Positions 6,154 to 10,935 of a stretch of DNA of 35,544 bases are shown one piece after another. Position 1 is the first letter of the stretch, and every line of letters starts with the position of its first letter. The translations under genes were made by a program, and so were the position numbers. The stretch spans positions 73,811 to 109,354 of the forward strand of contig JACFNR010000003.1 of the NCBI GenBank assembly GCA_019454765.1, read 5' to 3'. Source of the DNA: Trueperaceae bacterium. GTDB lineage: Bacteria > Deinococcota > Deinococci > Deinococcales > Trueperaceae. The notes beneath the pieces are model-generated. The model was not told where the DNA came from. It ran no database searches and worked only from the letters and a program-made list of their open reading frames with translations.

Positions 6154-7185
6154 TCAGGTTCGCCGCGTCAACGCCAGGAGCAGCGGGTTGTGGCCGCCGT
6201 GCGCGACCTGGAGCTCGCGCGCCACCGTCCACGCCGACTGGCCGGCCACCACCTGCCGCGTCAGCTTGACCTCGTGGCTGAGGAGGCAGAGGGTGGCTCC
6301 GGGCGTGGCCAGGCGCGCGGCGGCCTCCAGCAGCCGCGGGTAGAGGCGGCGGTTGGCGGCGTGGGCCCCGACCGCGTCGCCCCACGGGGCGTCGACGGCG
6401 AGGGCGTCGAAGCCGCCCGCCGCGCCGAGCAGGGTCACGAACCGGTCGTCCGTCACGTCGCCCACGAGGAGCTCGCAGCGCCCCGCCACCCCGGCCGCCG
6501 CGGCGTTGCGCCCGGCGCAGGCGACGGCCTCGGGATCGAGGTCGAACCCGACGAGGCGCGCCGCCGGGCCGAGCAGGGCGCGCTCTATCAACAGCGTTCC
6601 GGAGCCGCACATCAGGTTCAGGTAGGCGCTGCCATCGCCCCCGCCGACCAGCTCGTTCATGACGGCGCCGACGGCCGCGTTCAGGCCGCCGGGTCGGTTG
6701 CAGACGCGCCAGGTCCGCGCCGAGGCGGGGCGCGGGGAGAGGCGGACGAGGACCTCCCAGCCGCTCGCGGCCGCGGCCGGGCGCACGCGCACCAGCAGGT
6801 CGCCGTCCGCCGGGTCGGGTTCGACGCCGACGGCGGCGGCGAGTTGCGCCGCGAGCCGCTGGAACGTGGCCGAGTCCGCGCCGGCGGCGGAGAGCCGCAG
6901 CCCGCTGAAGCGCGCCCCGGCGCCGACGCCCCTCACGGCGCCGATGAGCCTCCGAAGCGTGGCGTCCCCAAGCAGCGCCTTGGGGCGCGGCACGTCGAAC
7001 GTCAGCGTCAAGTAGACGGCCAGGACCGTGCGCGCCGCGGCCGCGCGGGCCGCGGCGCCCCGCCCCTCGACGATGAAGCCGCCGGGCACGCCCACGGCCC
7101 GCCCGACACCGCGGCGCTTGAGCTCGGCGAGCGCCACCACCTCGGCGCCACCGGGTACCTCGACGAAGTAGCGTTCCGCCGGCAC
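6154..7185 (-). CDS. THUMP-type RNA guanine-N2 methyltransferase (TrmN/Trm14-like)
   Basis: A 343-residue class I SAM-dependent methyltransferase. The first ~150 residues look like a ferredoxin-like plus THUMP RNA-binding region (MPAERYFVEVPGGAEVVALAEL at the start). The C-terminal half has LNLMCGSGTLLIE (motif I, SAM binding), VGFDLDPEAV (motif II, ribose-binding acid), and DAPWG in place of the DPPY/DPPWG catalytic motif IV. This order matches the tRNA m2G6 methyltransferase TrmN of Thermus and the RlmL/Trm14 group, so a tRNA or rRNA guanine is the likely target, though not proven. The change of DPPWG to DAPWG is notable. The GTG at 7185 is preceded by TAGCAT at 6 nt. It is divergent from the ABC importer operon. 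Confidence 0.8.
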   Translation of the reverse strand: MPAERYFVEVPGGAEVVALAELKRRGVGRAVGVPGGFIVEGRGAAARAAAARTVLAVYLTLTFDVPRPKALLGDATLRRLIGAVRGVGAGARFSGLRLSAAGADSATFQRLAAQLAAAVGVEPDPADGDLLVRVRPAAAASGWEVLVRLSPRPASARTWRVCNRPGGLNAAVGAVMNELVGGGDGSAYLNLMCGSGTLLIERALLGPAARLVGFDLDPEAVACAGRNAAAAGVAGRCELLVGDVTDDRFVTLLGAAGGFDALAVDAPWGDAVGAHAANRRLYPRLLEAAARLATPGATLCLLSHEVKLTRQVVAGQSAWTVARELQVAHGGHNPLLLALTRRT

Positions 7186-7259: not shown

Positions 7260-7265
7260 TATAGT
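7260..7265 (+). promoter_or_regulatory. -10 box of the ABC importer operon (TATAGT)
   Basis: TATAGT is one of the closest matches to TATAAT in the window and lies 6 nt before the GTG of a short leader ORF at 7272. The -35 position shows no clear TTGACA. It sits in an 86-bp gap shared with the divergent methyltransferase promoter. Confidence 0.5.
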
Positions 7266-7271
7266 TGAGGT

Positions 7272-7328
7272 GTGACTGCAGCCGAGGCCGGTACTTCAGC
7301 CCGTCGGTCCGACGGCTCCCGGCGGTGA
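7272..7328 (+). CDS. Putative leaderless 18-codon leader ORF before the permease gene
   Basis: The GTG lies 6 nt after TATAGT, the spacing seen at other probable leaderless starts here. It encodes MTAAEAGTSARRSDGSRR and stops at TGA (7326-7328), which overlaps the GTG start of the permease gene as GTGA. It has no recognisable domain. It could bring ribosomes to the permease start, which has no Shine-Dalgarno, or sense translation. Alternatively it is the true basic N-terminus joined by a frameshift or sequence error, since the permease also starts with a basic Ser/Ala-rich stretch. Confidence 0.4.
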   Translation: MTAAEAGTSARRSDGSRR

Positions 7329-8503
7329 CGGCGTCCGCCTCGAGCAAGTCGCGGCGGCGCGGCCCGTCGCGGCAGGAGCGGCGCGACTGGGTCACGGCCT
7401 ACCTGTTCGTGCTGCCGGCCACGGTGCTCATCTTCGTCTTCGGGCTGTTCCCGATCGGCTACTCCGTCTACATGAGCCTCCACAACTGGCGCGTGCGCAA
7501 GGGGGACTTCATCGGTCTGCGCAACTACGCCGCCACGCTGGGCGACTGGTGGGGGGCCCTCGCCTTCTTCGGCGGCCTCGTGCTCATCATCGTCGCGCAC
7601 TGGCTGTGGACGGACGCCTTCAAGGGGGGCCATGCCCGCGCGCCAACGGCGGCGCGCGTGATCGGGGCGCTCGTCCTGCTCTCCTCCGGCGTGTTCGTGG
7701 CGCTCGGCTGGCGCCTGATGATGGACGCAGGCAACAAGACCTACCTGCGGAGCCTCGTCAGGACCGTCTACTACGGCTTCGGGTCCGTCCCCGTCCAGAT
7801 CGCCCTGGCGCTGGTGCTCGCCACCCTGCTGTTCCAGAAGATCCGGGGGCAGGAACTCTTCCGGATGCTCTACTTCCTCCCGTACATCACCCCGGCGGTG
7901 GCCGGCGCCGCCATCTTCCGCAACCTCTTCAGTCCGCGGGAGGAGCGCCTCGCCAACCAGGTGCTGGCGTTGGTCGGCATCCCGCCGCAACGGTGGCTGT
8001 TCGAGACGAAGCCGCTGTCGCAGCTCCTGTTCGGCGGCCTGTTCCCGAACGTCGACTGGAGCGGCTTCTGGGCCGGACCGTCGTTGGCGCTTGTCACCAT
8101 CATCATCTTCGGGATCTGGACGTTCACCGGCTACAACGTCGTCATCTTCCTGGCGGGCCTGGGCGGCATCTCCAAGGAGCTGTACGACGCCGCCGCCATC
8201 GACGGGGCGGACCGCCGCCAGCAGTTCCGTTACATCACGGTGCCGCTCCTCTCGCCCGTGACCTTCTACCTGACGGTCCTCGGCTTCATCGGCACCTTCC
8301 AGGCCTTCACCCACATCTACGTCATGCGGGCGCCCGCCACGCGCGACGCGGTCGACACCGCCTCCATCGTGATCTTCGACACGTTCTACAAGCTGAGCAA
8401 CTTCAGCCTGGCGGCGGCGCAGTCGGTGATCCTCTTCGTGATCATCCTGCTCCTGACCCTGCTCCAGAACCGGCTGTTCGGGAAGCGGGTGTTCGGTGCC
8501 TGA
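7325..8503 (+). CDS. Carbohydrate ABC transporter permease, MalF/UgpA type
   Basis: A 392-residue inner-membrane permease with about eight hydrophobic segments. The first follows a basic cytosolic start (YLFVLPATVLIFVFGLFPI, about residues 26-44). An extra helical pair follows before the transport core. The EAA loop that docks the ATPase is clear: ELYDAAAIDGADRRQQFRYITVP at about residues 288-310, quoted here only in part as ELYDAAAIDGADRR. The family imports sugars, oligosaccharides or glycerol phosphates. GTG at 7325 was chosen because it gives a normal short N-terminus and overlaps the leader-ORF stop as GTGA. A TTG at 7265 in the same frame is less likely because it falls on the -10 box. 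The gene overlaps the second permease by 8 bp. No ATP-binding subunit is encoded nearby. Confidence 0.9.
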   Translation: MTASASSKSRRRGPSRQERRDWVTAYLFVLPATVLIFVFGLFPIGYSVYMSLHNWRVRKGDFIGLRNYAATLGDWWGALAFFGGLVLIIVAHWLWTDAFKGGHARAPTAARVIGALVLLSSGVFVALGWRLMMDAGNKTYLRSLVRTVYYGFGSVPVQIALALVLATLLFQKIRGQELFRMLYFLPYITPAVAGAAIFRNLFSPREERLANQVLALVGIPPQRWLFETKPLSQLLFGGLFPNVDWSGFWAGPSLALVTIIIFGIWTFTGYNVVIFLAGLGGISKELYDAAAIDGADRRQQFRYITVPLLSPVTFYLTVLGFIGTFQAFTHIYVMRAPATRDAVDTASIVIFDTFYKLSNFSLAAAQSVILFVIILLLTLLQNRLFGKRVFGA

Positions 8504-9431
8504 CGCGCCGGGCCGCAGGCGGCGCGCCGCCGCGCCGGCGCCGACCACCGAGGTGATCGGCGGCGTCGAGCGGGTGGTGCGGCCGCGCGTCCGGGCCCCC
8601 TACCAGTTCGAGCTGTCGCACATCCCCATCTACTTCGTGCTGCTGGTGGGCGCCATCGTCAGCATCGTCCCGTTCTTCTACATGCTGTCGACGTCGCTCA
8701 TGACGCTGGGCGAGACGATAAACCGCGTCCTGCTCCCCGCCTCGCCCCAGTTCGTCAACTACGAGGTGGCCTGGAGCGAGTCGCACTTCGCCCTCTACTT
8801 CCGCAACAGCGTGATCATCACGGCGTTGGTCATCGCGGGCGTGCTCGTCACGTGCATCCTGGCGGGTTACGCCTTCGCCCGCATCCGCTTCCCGGGCCGT
8901 GAGGCGCTCTTCGCGGTGCTGCTCGCCACCCTCATGATCCCCGGCACCGTCACCTTCATCCCCAACCTCCTCCTGGTCCGCGGCCAGATAATCCCCTGGG
9001 GCTCCTGGATGAACACCCTCCCCGCCCTCACGGTGCCGTTCATGGCGACGGCGTTCATCATCTTCCTCTTCCGCCAGTTCTTCGTCGGCATCCCGGGCGA
9101 GTTGTACGACGCTGCCCGGATGGACGGCGCGGGCCACCTGCGCTTCCTCACCTCCGTCGTGGTGCCCATGTCGAAGCCCGTCATCATGACCGCCACCCTC
9201 CTGTCGTTCGTGGCGAGCTGGAACGAGTTCCTGTGGCCACTCCTCGTGACCACCACGCCGAAGTGGCGCCCGCTCGGCGTCGGGCTCTACACCTTCATCT
9301 CGGAGGCCGGCCCGGAGACCCAGCTCCTGATGGCGGGGACGGTCATCACGGTAATACCGGTGCTGGTGGTGTACTTCTTCACCCAGAAGCAATTCACCGA
9401 GGGCATCGCCACCTCGGGCCTGAAGGGATGA
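8496..9431 (+). CDS. Carbohydrate ABC transporter permease, MalG/UgpE type
   Basis: A 311-residue permease that pairs with the preceding MalF-type subunit. It has a ~45-residue cytosolic start, then about six helices beginning with IPIYFVLLVGAIVSIVPFFY. The periplasmic stretch before helix 2 is typical of the CUT1 family. The EAA motif ELYDAARMDGAGHLR (about residues 203-217) contacts the ATPase. The protein ends with a short basic-free tail (EGIATSGLKG), as in MalG-type proteins. Its GTG start lies inside the last codons of the upstream gene (8-bp overlap, GTGCCTGA), so translation is probably coupled. The substrate is unknown. Confidence 0.9.
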   Translation: MPDAPGRRRRAAAPAPTTEVIGGVERVVRPRVRAPYQFELSHIPIYFVLLVGAIVSIVPFFYMLSTSLMTLGETINRVLLPASPQFVNYEVAWSESHFALYFRNSVIITALVIAGVLVTCILAGYAFARIRFPGREALFAVLLATLMIPGTVTFIPNLLLVRGQIIPWGSWMNTLPALTVPFMATAFIIFLFRQFFVGIPGELYDAARMDGAGHLRFLTSVVVPMSKPVIMTATLLSFVASWNEFLWPLLVTTTPKWRPLGVGLYTFISEAGPETQLLMAGTVITVIPVLVVYFFTQKQFTEGIATSGLKG

Positions 9432-9585: not shown

Positions 9586-10935
9586 ATGACGAGAAGGTTC
9601 TTGACCGTCTTCACCCTGGTGGCCCTGGCGTTGACGGGGCCGGCGTTCGCGCAGGACTGGGAGTCGGTCGACCCCAGCGGCCAGACGGTCACGTTCTGGC
9701 ACCAGCACACGCGCGAGCGCGAGACCGCCCTCGACAAGATCGTGCAGGAGTTCAACGACTCGAACGAGTACGGCATCACCGTCGTGGCCGAGTATCAGGG
9801 CGGCTACAGCGACATCTACCAGAAGATGGTGGCCTTGCTCGGCACCACCGACACACCCAACCTGGTCGTCGCCTACCAGAACCAGGCCGCCACCTACCAG
9901 CTCGCGGACGGGCTCGTCGACATGACGCCCCTCGTGAACTCGCCGAAGTGGGGCATCTCCCCAGAGGACCAGGCCGACTTCTTCCCCGGCTTCTGGAACT
10001 CCGACATCTTCCCGAGCTTCGGCGGCGAGCGCCTCGGGCTCGCTCCCAACCGCTCGATGGAGATGCTCTACTACAACGCCGACTGGCTGAAGGAGCTCCG
10101 CGCGGCCGGCAAGATCGACTTCGACGGGCCCCCCACCACGCCGGAGCAGTTCAAGGCCGCCGCCTGCGCCGCGACGGGCTCGCCGTTCTCCGGAGCCACC
10201 GTCACGGGGGCGCCCATCGGTTACGAGCTCTCCGTCGACGCCAGCCGCTTCGCGTCGTTCACCTTCGCGTTCGGCGGCAACGTCTACGATTCGTCCAGCA
10301 ACCGCTACACCCTCGACTCGCCCGCCGCGGTGGAGGCCATGACCTTCCTGCAGGGGATGTTCGCGGACGGTTGCGCCCAGCTCGTGACGGAGGCGTACGG
10401 CGACCAGACCGACTTCGGCAACGGCCGCCTGCTGTTCACCGTCTCCTCCAGCTCGGGTCTGCCCTTCTACCAGAGCGCCGTCGACTCCGGTGCTGGCTTC
10501 GAGTGGAGCGTGGCTGCCATACCGCACACCACCCCCGAGCCGGTGATGAACATCTACGGCGCCAGCGTCAGCATGCCGTCCGGCCACAGCCCCGAATCCA
10601 CCCTCGCCGCCTGGCTGTTCCTCAAGTACTACACGGGCACCAAGGCGCAGACCGAGTGGGCCATCGCCAGCCAGTACTTCCCCGTCCGCAAGAGCGTCGC
10701 GGCGGGCCTGACCGACTTCTTCGACTCCCTGCCCCCCTACAAGACGGCGTTCGATCTCCTGCCTTACGGCATCTCGGAACCCAACGTCCCGGGTTACGAC
10801 CCCGTGCGCGACAGCATCGCCGCCGAGATGTCGGCCATCGTCGACGGCGCCGACGTGACCGAGACCCTGCACATACTCAACGGCGAGGCGAACCTGATCC
10901 TCGACGACCAGCTCTCGCAGCTGCCCGTTCATTGA
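9586..10935 (+). CDS. Extracellular solute(sugar)-binding protein of the ABC importer
   Basis: A 449-residue type I solute-binding protein (UgpB/MalE-like family 1). The signal peptide MTRRFLTVFTLVALALTGPAFA should be cut before QDW near residue 22; it is described here as basic start, hydrophobic core and AFA cleavage site. There is no lipobox Cys, so the protein is soluble in the periplasm or exported. Mature-region marks include VTFWHQHT and the LYYNADWLKELRAAG stretch typical of the family. It should catch a sugar and deliver it to the two upstream permeases. A strong Shine-Dalgarno GGAAGGAG (9571-9578) lies 7 nt before the ATG, unlike most genes here. A hairpin follows at 10997-11024. 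The ligand cannot be read from sequence. Confidence 0.88.
   Translation: MTRRFLTVFTLVALALTGPAFAQDWESVDPSGQTVTFWHQHTRERETALDKIVQEFNDSNEYGITVVAEYQGGYSDIYQKMVALLGTTDTPNLVVAYQNQAATYQLADGLVDMTPLVNSPKWGISPEDQADFFPGFWNSDIFPSFGGERLGLAPNRSMEMLYYNADWLKELRAAGKIDFDGPPTTPEQFKAAACAATGSPFSGATVTGAPIGYELSVDASRFASFTFAFGGNVYDSSSNRYTLDSPAAVEAMTFLQGMFADGCAQLVTEAYGDQTDFGNGRLLFTVSSSSGLPFYQSAVDSGAGFEWSVAAIPHTTPEPVMNIYGASVSMPSGHSPESTLAAWLFLKYYTGTKAQTEWAIASQYFPVRKSVAAGLTDFFDSLPPYKTAFDLLPYGISEPNVPGYDPVRDSIAAEMSAIVDGADVTETLHILNGEANLILDDQLSQLPVH

Follow-up and report, generated by a model that had tools for sequence, protein, structure and literature searches.

The importer locus and its short leader

The window is the whole stretch of DNA that was analyzed, 35,544 nucleotides from a Trueperaceae bacterium (GenBank assembly GCA_019454765.1, contig JACFNR010000003.1). 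The assembly, referred to here as G000, is a draft of 2.91 Mb in 93 contigs. The window carries an ABC importer cluster, with genes for a MalF-type permease, a MalG-type permease, and a solute-binding protein (Table 1). Upstream of the MalF-type permease gene, on the opposite strand, there is a methyltransferase gene with its own leaderless-type start. A -10 box and a short upstream open reading frame (uORF) precede the permease gene.

Table 1. Coordinates of the importer locus in the window, and location of the Ddl-like gene uORFs
Feature	Position	Strand	Details
Divergent methyltransferase, UPF0020/RMKL-like	6154-7185	-	Leaderless-type start TAGCAT-N6-GTG 7185
-10 box TATAGT, leaderless-type promoter	7260-7265	+	Box unchanged in the five other genomes of the genus
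Predicted leaderless uORF, 18 codons, MTAAEAGTSARRSDGSRR	7272..7328	+	Stop TGA 7326-7328; direct reading
GTGA stop/start overlap, uORF to permease	7325..7328	+	Direct reading
MalF-type ABC importer permease, 392 aa	7325..8503	+	Start GTG 7325; PF00528
MalG-type permease	8496..9431	+	Overlaps end of MalF-type gene; predicted start; PF00528
Solute-binding protein	9586..10935	+	Same importer cluster; PF13416 SBP_bac_8
Ddl-like gene uORF, G000	L090 region of contig C11	-
Ddl-like gene uORF, G020	C1 near 1576430

The sequence-only reading had described the leader as TATAGT, 6 nucleotides, a GTG, 18 codons, and a TGA overlapping the GTG of the permease gene. We checked this layout by direct reading and with a script, and it was exact; the spacer between the -10 box and the GTG at 7272-7274 is TGAGGT. 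The reading had also stated that the permease start has no Shine-Dalgarno sequence, and none of the cores GGAG, GAGG, and AGGA is present before GTG 7325. The sole start-like codon in the permease frame besides GTG 7325 is TTG 7265. Since this TTG begins within the -10 box, GTG 7325 is the only usable permease start downstream of the promoter. With its 18 codons, the uORF falls under the 50-codon limit of the class of RTGA-coupled small ORFs, and it ends in the GTGA that it shares with the permease start. One GTGA overlap would not be remarkable by itself; such an overlap forms easily because the second permease codon starts with A.

The 53 bases of the leader lack coding bias in all frames, with a mean log-odds of -0.53 in the uORF frame and about -0.25 in the other two, compared with +0.47 for the permease body. 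Neither a conserved peptide nor a run of regulatory codons was found in the uORF. The leader RNA is no more structured than shuffled sequences (fold z-score, -0.3), and a search of Rfam up to an E value of 1 gave no match; we therefore rejected a structured leader or known RNA family, and attenuator hairpins or a terminator were likewise not found in the leader RNA. A tandem duplication was also rejected as the origin of the extra 53 bases, with 22 of 53 positions identical, which is no better than in shuffles.

Permease starts in related genomes

Of 39 genomes of the family, 29 had a permease match, and a scan of named genomes gave mainly distant permeases. All five genomes of the same genus (G018 to G022) have TATAGT 6 to 7 nucleotides before an ATG or GTG. 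In G019, G021, and G022, the sequence reads TATAGT-TGGGGC-GTGAAGCTC-GTG, with the first GTG in frame with the permease gene; after the second GTG, G019 and G022 continue with GTGACGGCC. The corresponding sequence of G020, a congener with a single-contig assembly, is TATAGT-TGGGTC-GTGACAGTA, and its start is also in frame. Because the leaderless start codon is in frame in these four congeners, their promoter is expected to give a directly leaderless permease mRNA. G000 again has a GTG at the leaderless position, but in a different frame from the permease. In the fifth congener, G018, TATAGT-N7-ATG opens an ORF of 16 codons, which is joined by ATGA to a further short ORF lying ahead of the permease gene. 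The relay linkage of G000 is thus not kept at the permease locus: G019 to G022 have the direct start, and the uORF of G018 couples to another short ORF.

Across the loci compared, the same elements occur in several combinations. A directly leaderless permease gene, with a spacing of 5 to 7, was found at 9 of 27 loci. One-step coupled uORFs precede the permease gene in other genera in G011 (21 codons, TGATG) and G029 (14 codons, GTGA), the latter with a promoter spacing of 8, outside the range of 6 to 7. G010, from another genus, reads as a two-step arrangement, with TATGAT-N6-GTG, 17 codons, and ATGA, and has a Shine-Dalgarno-like sequence before the permease gene. At two loci, L007 and L008, possible two-step relays lie about 50 to 145 bases 5' of the permease gene; the leaderless uORF overlaps a second short ORF by ATGA, and the second ORF ends shortly before the permease start.

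A conserved anchor residue lies 21 codons after GTG 7325, and at an equal distance from the G020 start and from the second GTG of G019, G021, and G022. Because GTG 7325 stands as far from this residue as these codons of the congeners do, the permease start has stayed put in G000. We conclude from this distance, and from GTGACGGC, which is common to G019 and G022, that GTG 7325 is the predicted ancestral permease start. The two GTG codons are 53 bases apart in G000 and nine in G019, G021, and G022, with none between them in G020, such that the promoter is about 44 to 53 bases farther from the permease start in G000 than in its congeners. On the tree, in which G000, G020, and the G019/G021/G022 group form a polytomy, this change could be an insertion in G000 or deletions in the relatives.

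Directly behind the start codon, 11 of 18 bases match between the uORF and the G020 permease gene (P = 0.002 against shuffles). Given this similarity of the opening codons, the uORF may descend from an old form of the permease start. The resemblance would also fit an assembly or sequencing indel: the true gene would then be leaderless, starting one frame away at GTG 7272, with a longer N-terminus and no uORF. Such an error would fit the draft state of G000 and the in-frame leaderless GTG of four congeners. However, with the start unmoved and the 44 to 53 bases interposed, the leader is not a permease N-terminus that is one base out of frame, as the sequence-only reading had allowed for. No change of one base would yield an ordinary gene: a fused N-terminus would place about 40 residues ahead of the conserved residue, versus about 22 to 29 in the direct-leaderless relatives, and coding bias is lacking in all frames of the 53 bases. 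Moreover, the architecture recurs at 13 other genes of G000 and is kept at several of them in the single-contig G020 (see below). We consider an indel unlikely.

The sequence-only reading had suggested checking whether related genomes retain the short frame, its stop, and the GTGA overlap with a synonymous bias. Four of five congeners have no uORF, and the leader has no coding bias. Relatives with no such frame, which the reading had named as evidence against itself, do exist, and they count against conservation of the G000 permease uORF.

Leaderless starts and coupled uORFs across the genome

The analysis covered 1.19 Mb of the G000 genome (2.91 Mb in total) and 1.60 Mb of the G020 genome (2.92 Mb in total). 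Among 994 predicted genes in the 1.19 Mb of G000, a TANNNT motif precedes an in-frame ATG or GTG near the gene start in 39 genes at a spacing of 5, in 105 genes at a spacing of 6, and in 59 genes at a spacing of 7, compared with about 7 to 8 genes at each unrelated spacing. The peak at a spacing of 6 is far beyond chance, and TANNNT-N6-RTG is a dominant start signal of G000. Of the 27 genes predicted in the window, 12 have a TANNNT-type start at a spacing of 5 to 8. The best matches of the G000 RNA polymerase β subunit include chains 1ynj and 1iw7, which are Thermus polymerases, at about 710 bits; the next group scored 472. G000 is on this basis a Deinococcota-like bacterium. In Deinococcus-Thermus, TANNNT shortly 5' of the start codon drives leaderless expression (Zhong et al. 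2025, PMC12340547; reportedly also de Groot et al. 2014).

We defined a relay as TANNNT, a spacer, and RTG outside predicted coding cores, opening an ORF of 3 to 40 codons whose stop overlaps an in-frame gene start as RTGA or TRATG; the expected number was taken from 22 control spacings. At spacings of 6 to 7, relays precede 14 genes in the 1.19 Mb of G000, versus 2.4 expected (P = 2e-7), and 11 genes in the 1.6 Mb of G020, versus 5.5 expected (P = 0.024). The enrichment in G020, taken singly, is modest. The 14 uORFs of G000, on contigs C1 to C12 and all but the permease uORF outside the window, are 9 to 22 codons long, and 12 of the 14 relay starts have no Shine-Dalgarno core.

For nine of the relay genes of G000, the analyzed portion of G020 contains an ortholog, and a relay precedes six of these orthologs as well. 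By sequence reading, the six include genes for a PilT-like ATPase, a response regulator, and thymidine-phosphorylase-like, D-Ala-D-Ala-ligase-like (Ddl-like), and NAD-epimerase-like proteins, and one more. Among "relays" at control spacings, none was conserved between G000 and G020 except nested start codons of the same relay genes. The uORF peptides of the G000/G020 pairs are unrelated save for MCNLHM in the ligase pair; hence, at six of nine relay genes, orthologs retain the linkage although their peptides have diverged. The Ddl-like pair differs from the other relay pairs in that MCNLHMLTAVRWPW and MCNLHMEAPLVVGE begin with the same six residues, and the 5' end of this gene is perhaps constrained.

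The epimerase-like locus (L251 in G000, L252 in G020, L253 in G021, and L255 in G019) has a TACCGT promoter, followed by a coupled uORF of 12 to 13 codons in G000 and G020 and directly by the gene start in G019 and G021. The epimerase and permease loci show the same two states, relay and direct start, within one genus.

Proposed ribosome delivery to the permease start and comparison with known systems

The promoter precedes no other usable in-frame start, so that a relay is the best reading of the permease leader. From the spacing of 6 behind TATAGT and the genome-wide spacing peak, we infer that the mRNA would start at or beside GTG 7272. Initiating at this codon as it would on other leaderless mRNAs of the lineage, a ribosome would translate the 18 codons, terminate at TGA 7326, stay on the mRNA, and reinitiate at the overlapping GTG 7325. 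The uORF peptide would be dispensable, the task of the uORF being ribosome delivery, and the relay and a direct leaderless start could replace each other in function. We conclude that a leaderless uORF likely delivers ribosomes to the permease by termination and reinitiation. This part of the sequence-only reading gains from the genus-wide conservation of the promoter and leaderless position, from GTG 7325 being the sole start, and from the retention of the class in orthologs.

Alternatively, the uORF could be incidental, with ribosomes initiating at GTG 7325 either directly or by 70S scanning on the 53-nucleotide leader. GTGA overlaps do arise by chance, each control spacing giving about 1.2 genes in the 1.19 Mb of G000. 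However, GTG 7325 has no Shine-Dalgarno sequence, the upstream GTG occupies the exact leaderless position that starts the gene itself in congeners, and the stop/start linkage is retained across orthologs of the class. We regard an incidental uORF as improbable, as we do the indel.

The sequence-only reading had combined the relay with a possible control point for the importer, and here the two parts separate. The relay architecture recurs across the genome and is already known from mycobacteria, so that it is probably real, though no new kind of control. Four of five congeners have no uORF, the uORF peptides are unrelated, coding bias is absent, and the leader RNA folds like shuffles. A function specific to regulation of the importer is, on this comparison, unneeded and not supported. 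Leaderless leader peptides of Deinococcus deserti are reportedly predicted to act in attenuation (de Groot et al. 2014), yet an attenuator or peptide sensor, in which translation of the uORF or stalling within it would adjust importer expression to a sensed condition, seems very improbable here, given that the peptides are unrelated among relatives and that G019 to G022 manage without a uORF.

Returning to the relay, we lean, by a narrow balance, toward the broader view that translation in the family regularly starts through leaderless uORF relays, as a conserved mode that interconverts with direct leaderless starts through gains and losses of short stretches between the -10 box and the gene. 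If so, leaderless initiation would feed more genes than start-site annotation implies, and genes of this lineage that lack a ribosome-binding site, and whose short 5' leader seems unexplained, would be translated via a leaderless mini-ORF. The congeners would provide a clean natural comparison within a genus, in which one promoter and gene occur both with the relay and without it. There would also be a warning for start-codon annotation, in that genes should not be extended to the promoter.

Leaderless genes in Deinococcus-Thermus are marked by TANNNT a few bases 5' of the start codon (Zhong et al. 2025, PMC12340547). The permease leader resembles these genes in its motif; there, however, the gene itself and not a uORF follows the -10 motif, and a term search of that paper showed no uORF relay. 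A literature search with partial coverage gave no report of a leaderless uORF relay for Deinococcus or Truepera. Coupling of two ORFs by a stop/start overlap is familiar from ATGA/TGATG termination-reinitiation (PMC6728339; reviewed in PMC12548453), which has mostly been studied between two full genes, whereas the first ORF here is a predicted leaderless uORF of 18 codons. Ribosome delivery by a uORF is a proposed initiation route in the same 2025 review of translational coupling (PMC12548453).

The closest counterpart is the "coupled" class of mycobacteria (Shell et al. 2015, PMC4633059), in which leaderless small ORFs end in RTGA at the start of the next gene, are over-represented, and keep the linkage, but not the peptide, in orthologs. 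The relays described here share the leaderless RTG, an ORF of <50 codons, the RTGA overlap, the over-representation, and a linkage that outlasts the peptide. They differ in belonging to another phylum and in being known from sequence alone. The permease relay itself is not kept in its nearest relatives; in mycobacteria, the linkage is kept for some members and is not obligatory (PMC4633059). The predicted architecture thus matches one already known from mycobacteria and places it in another phylum; if the relays operate as proposed, it would extend to a second phylum rich in leaderless genes.
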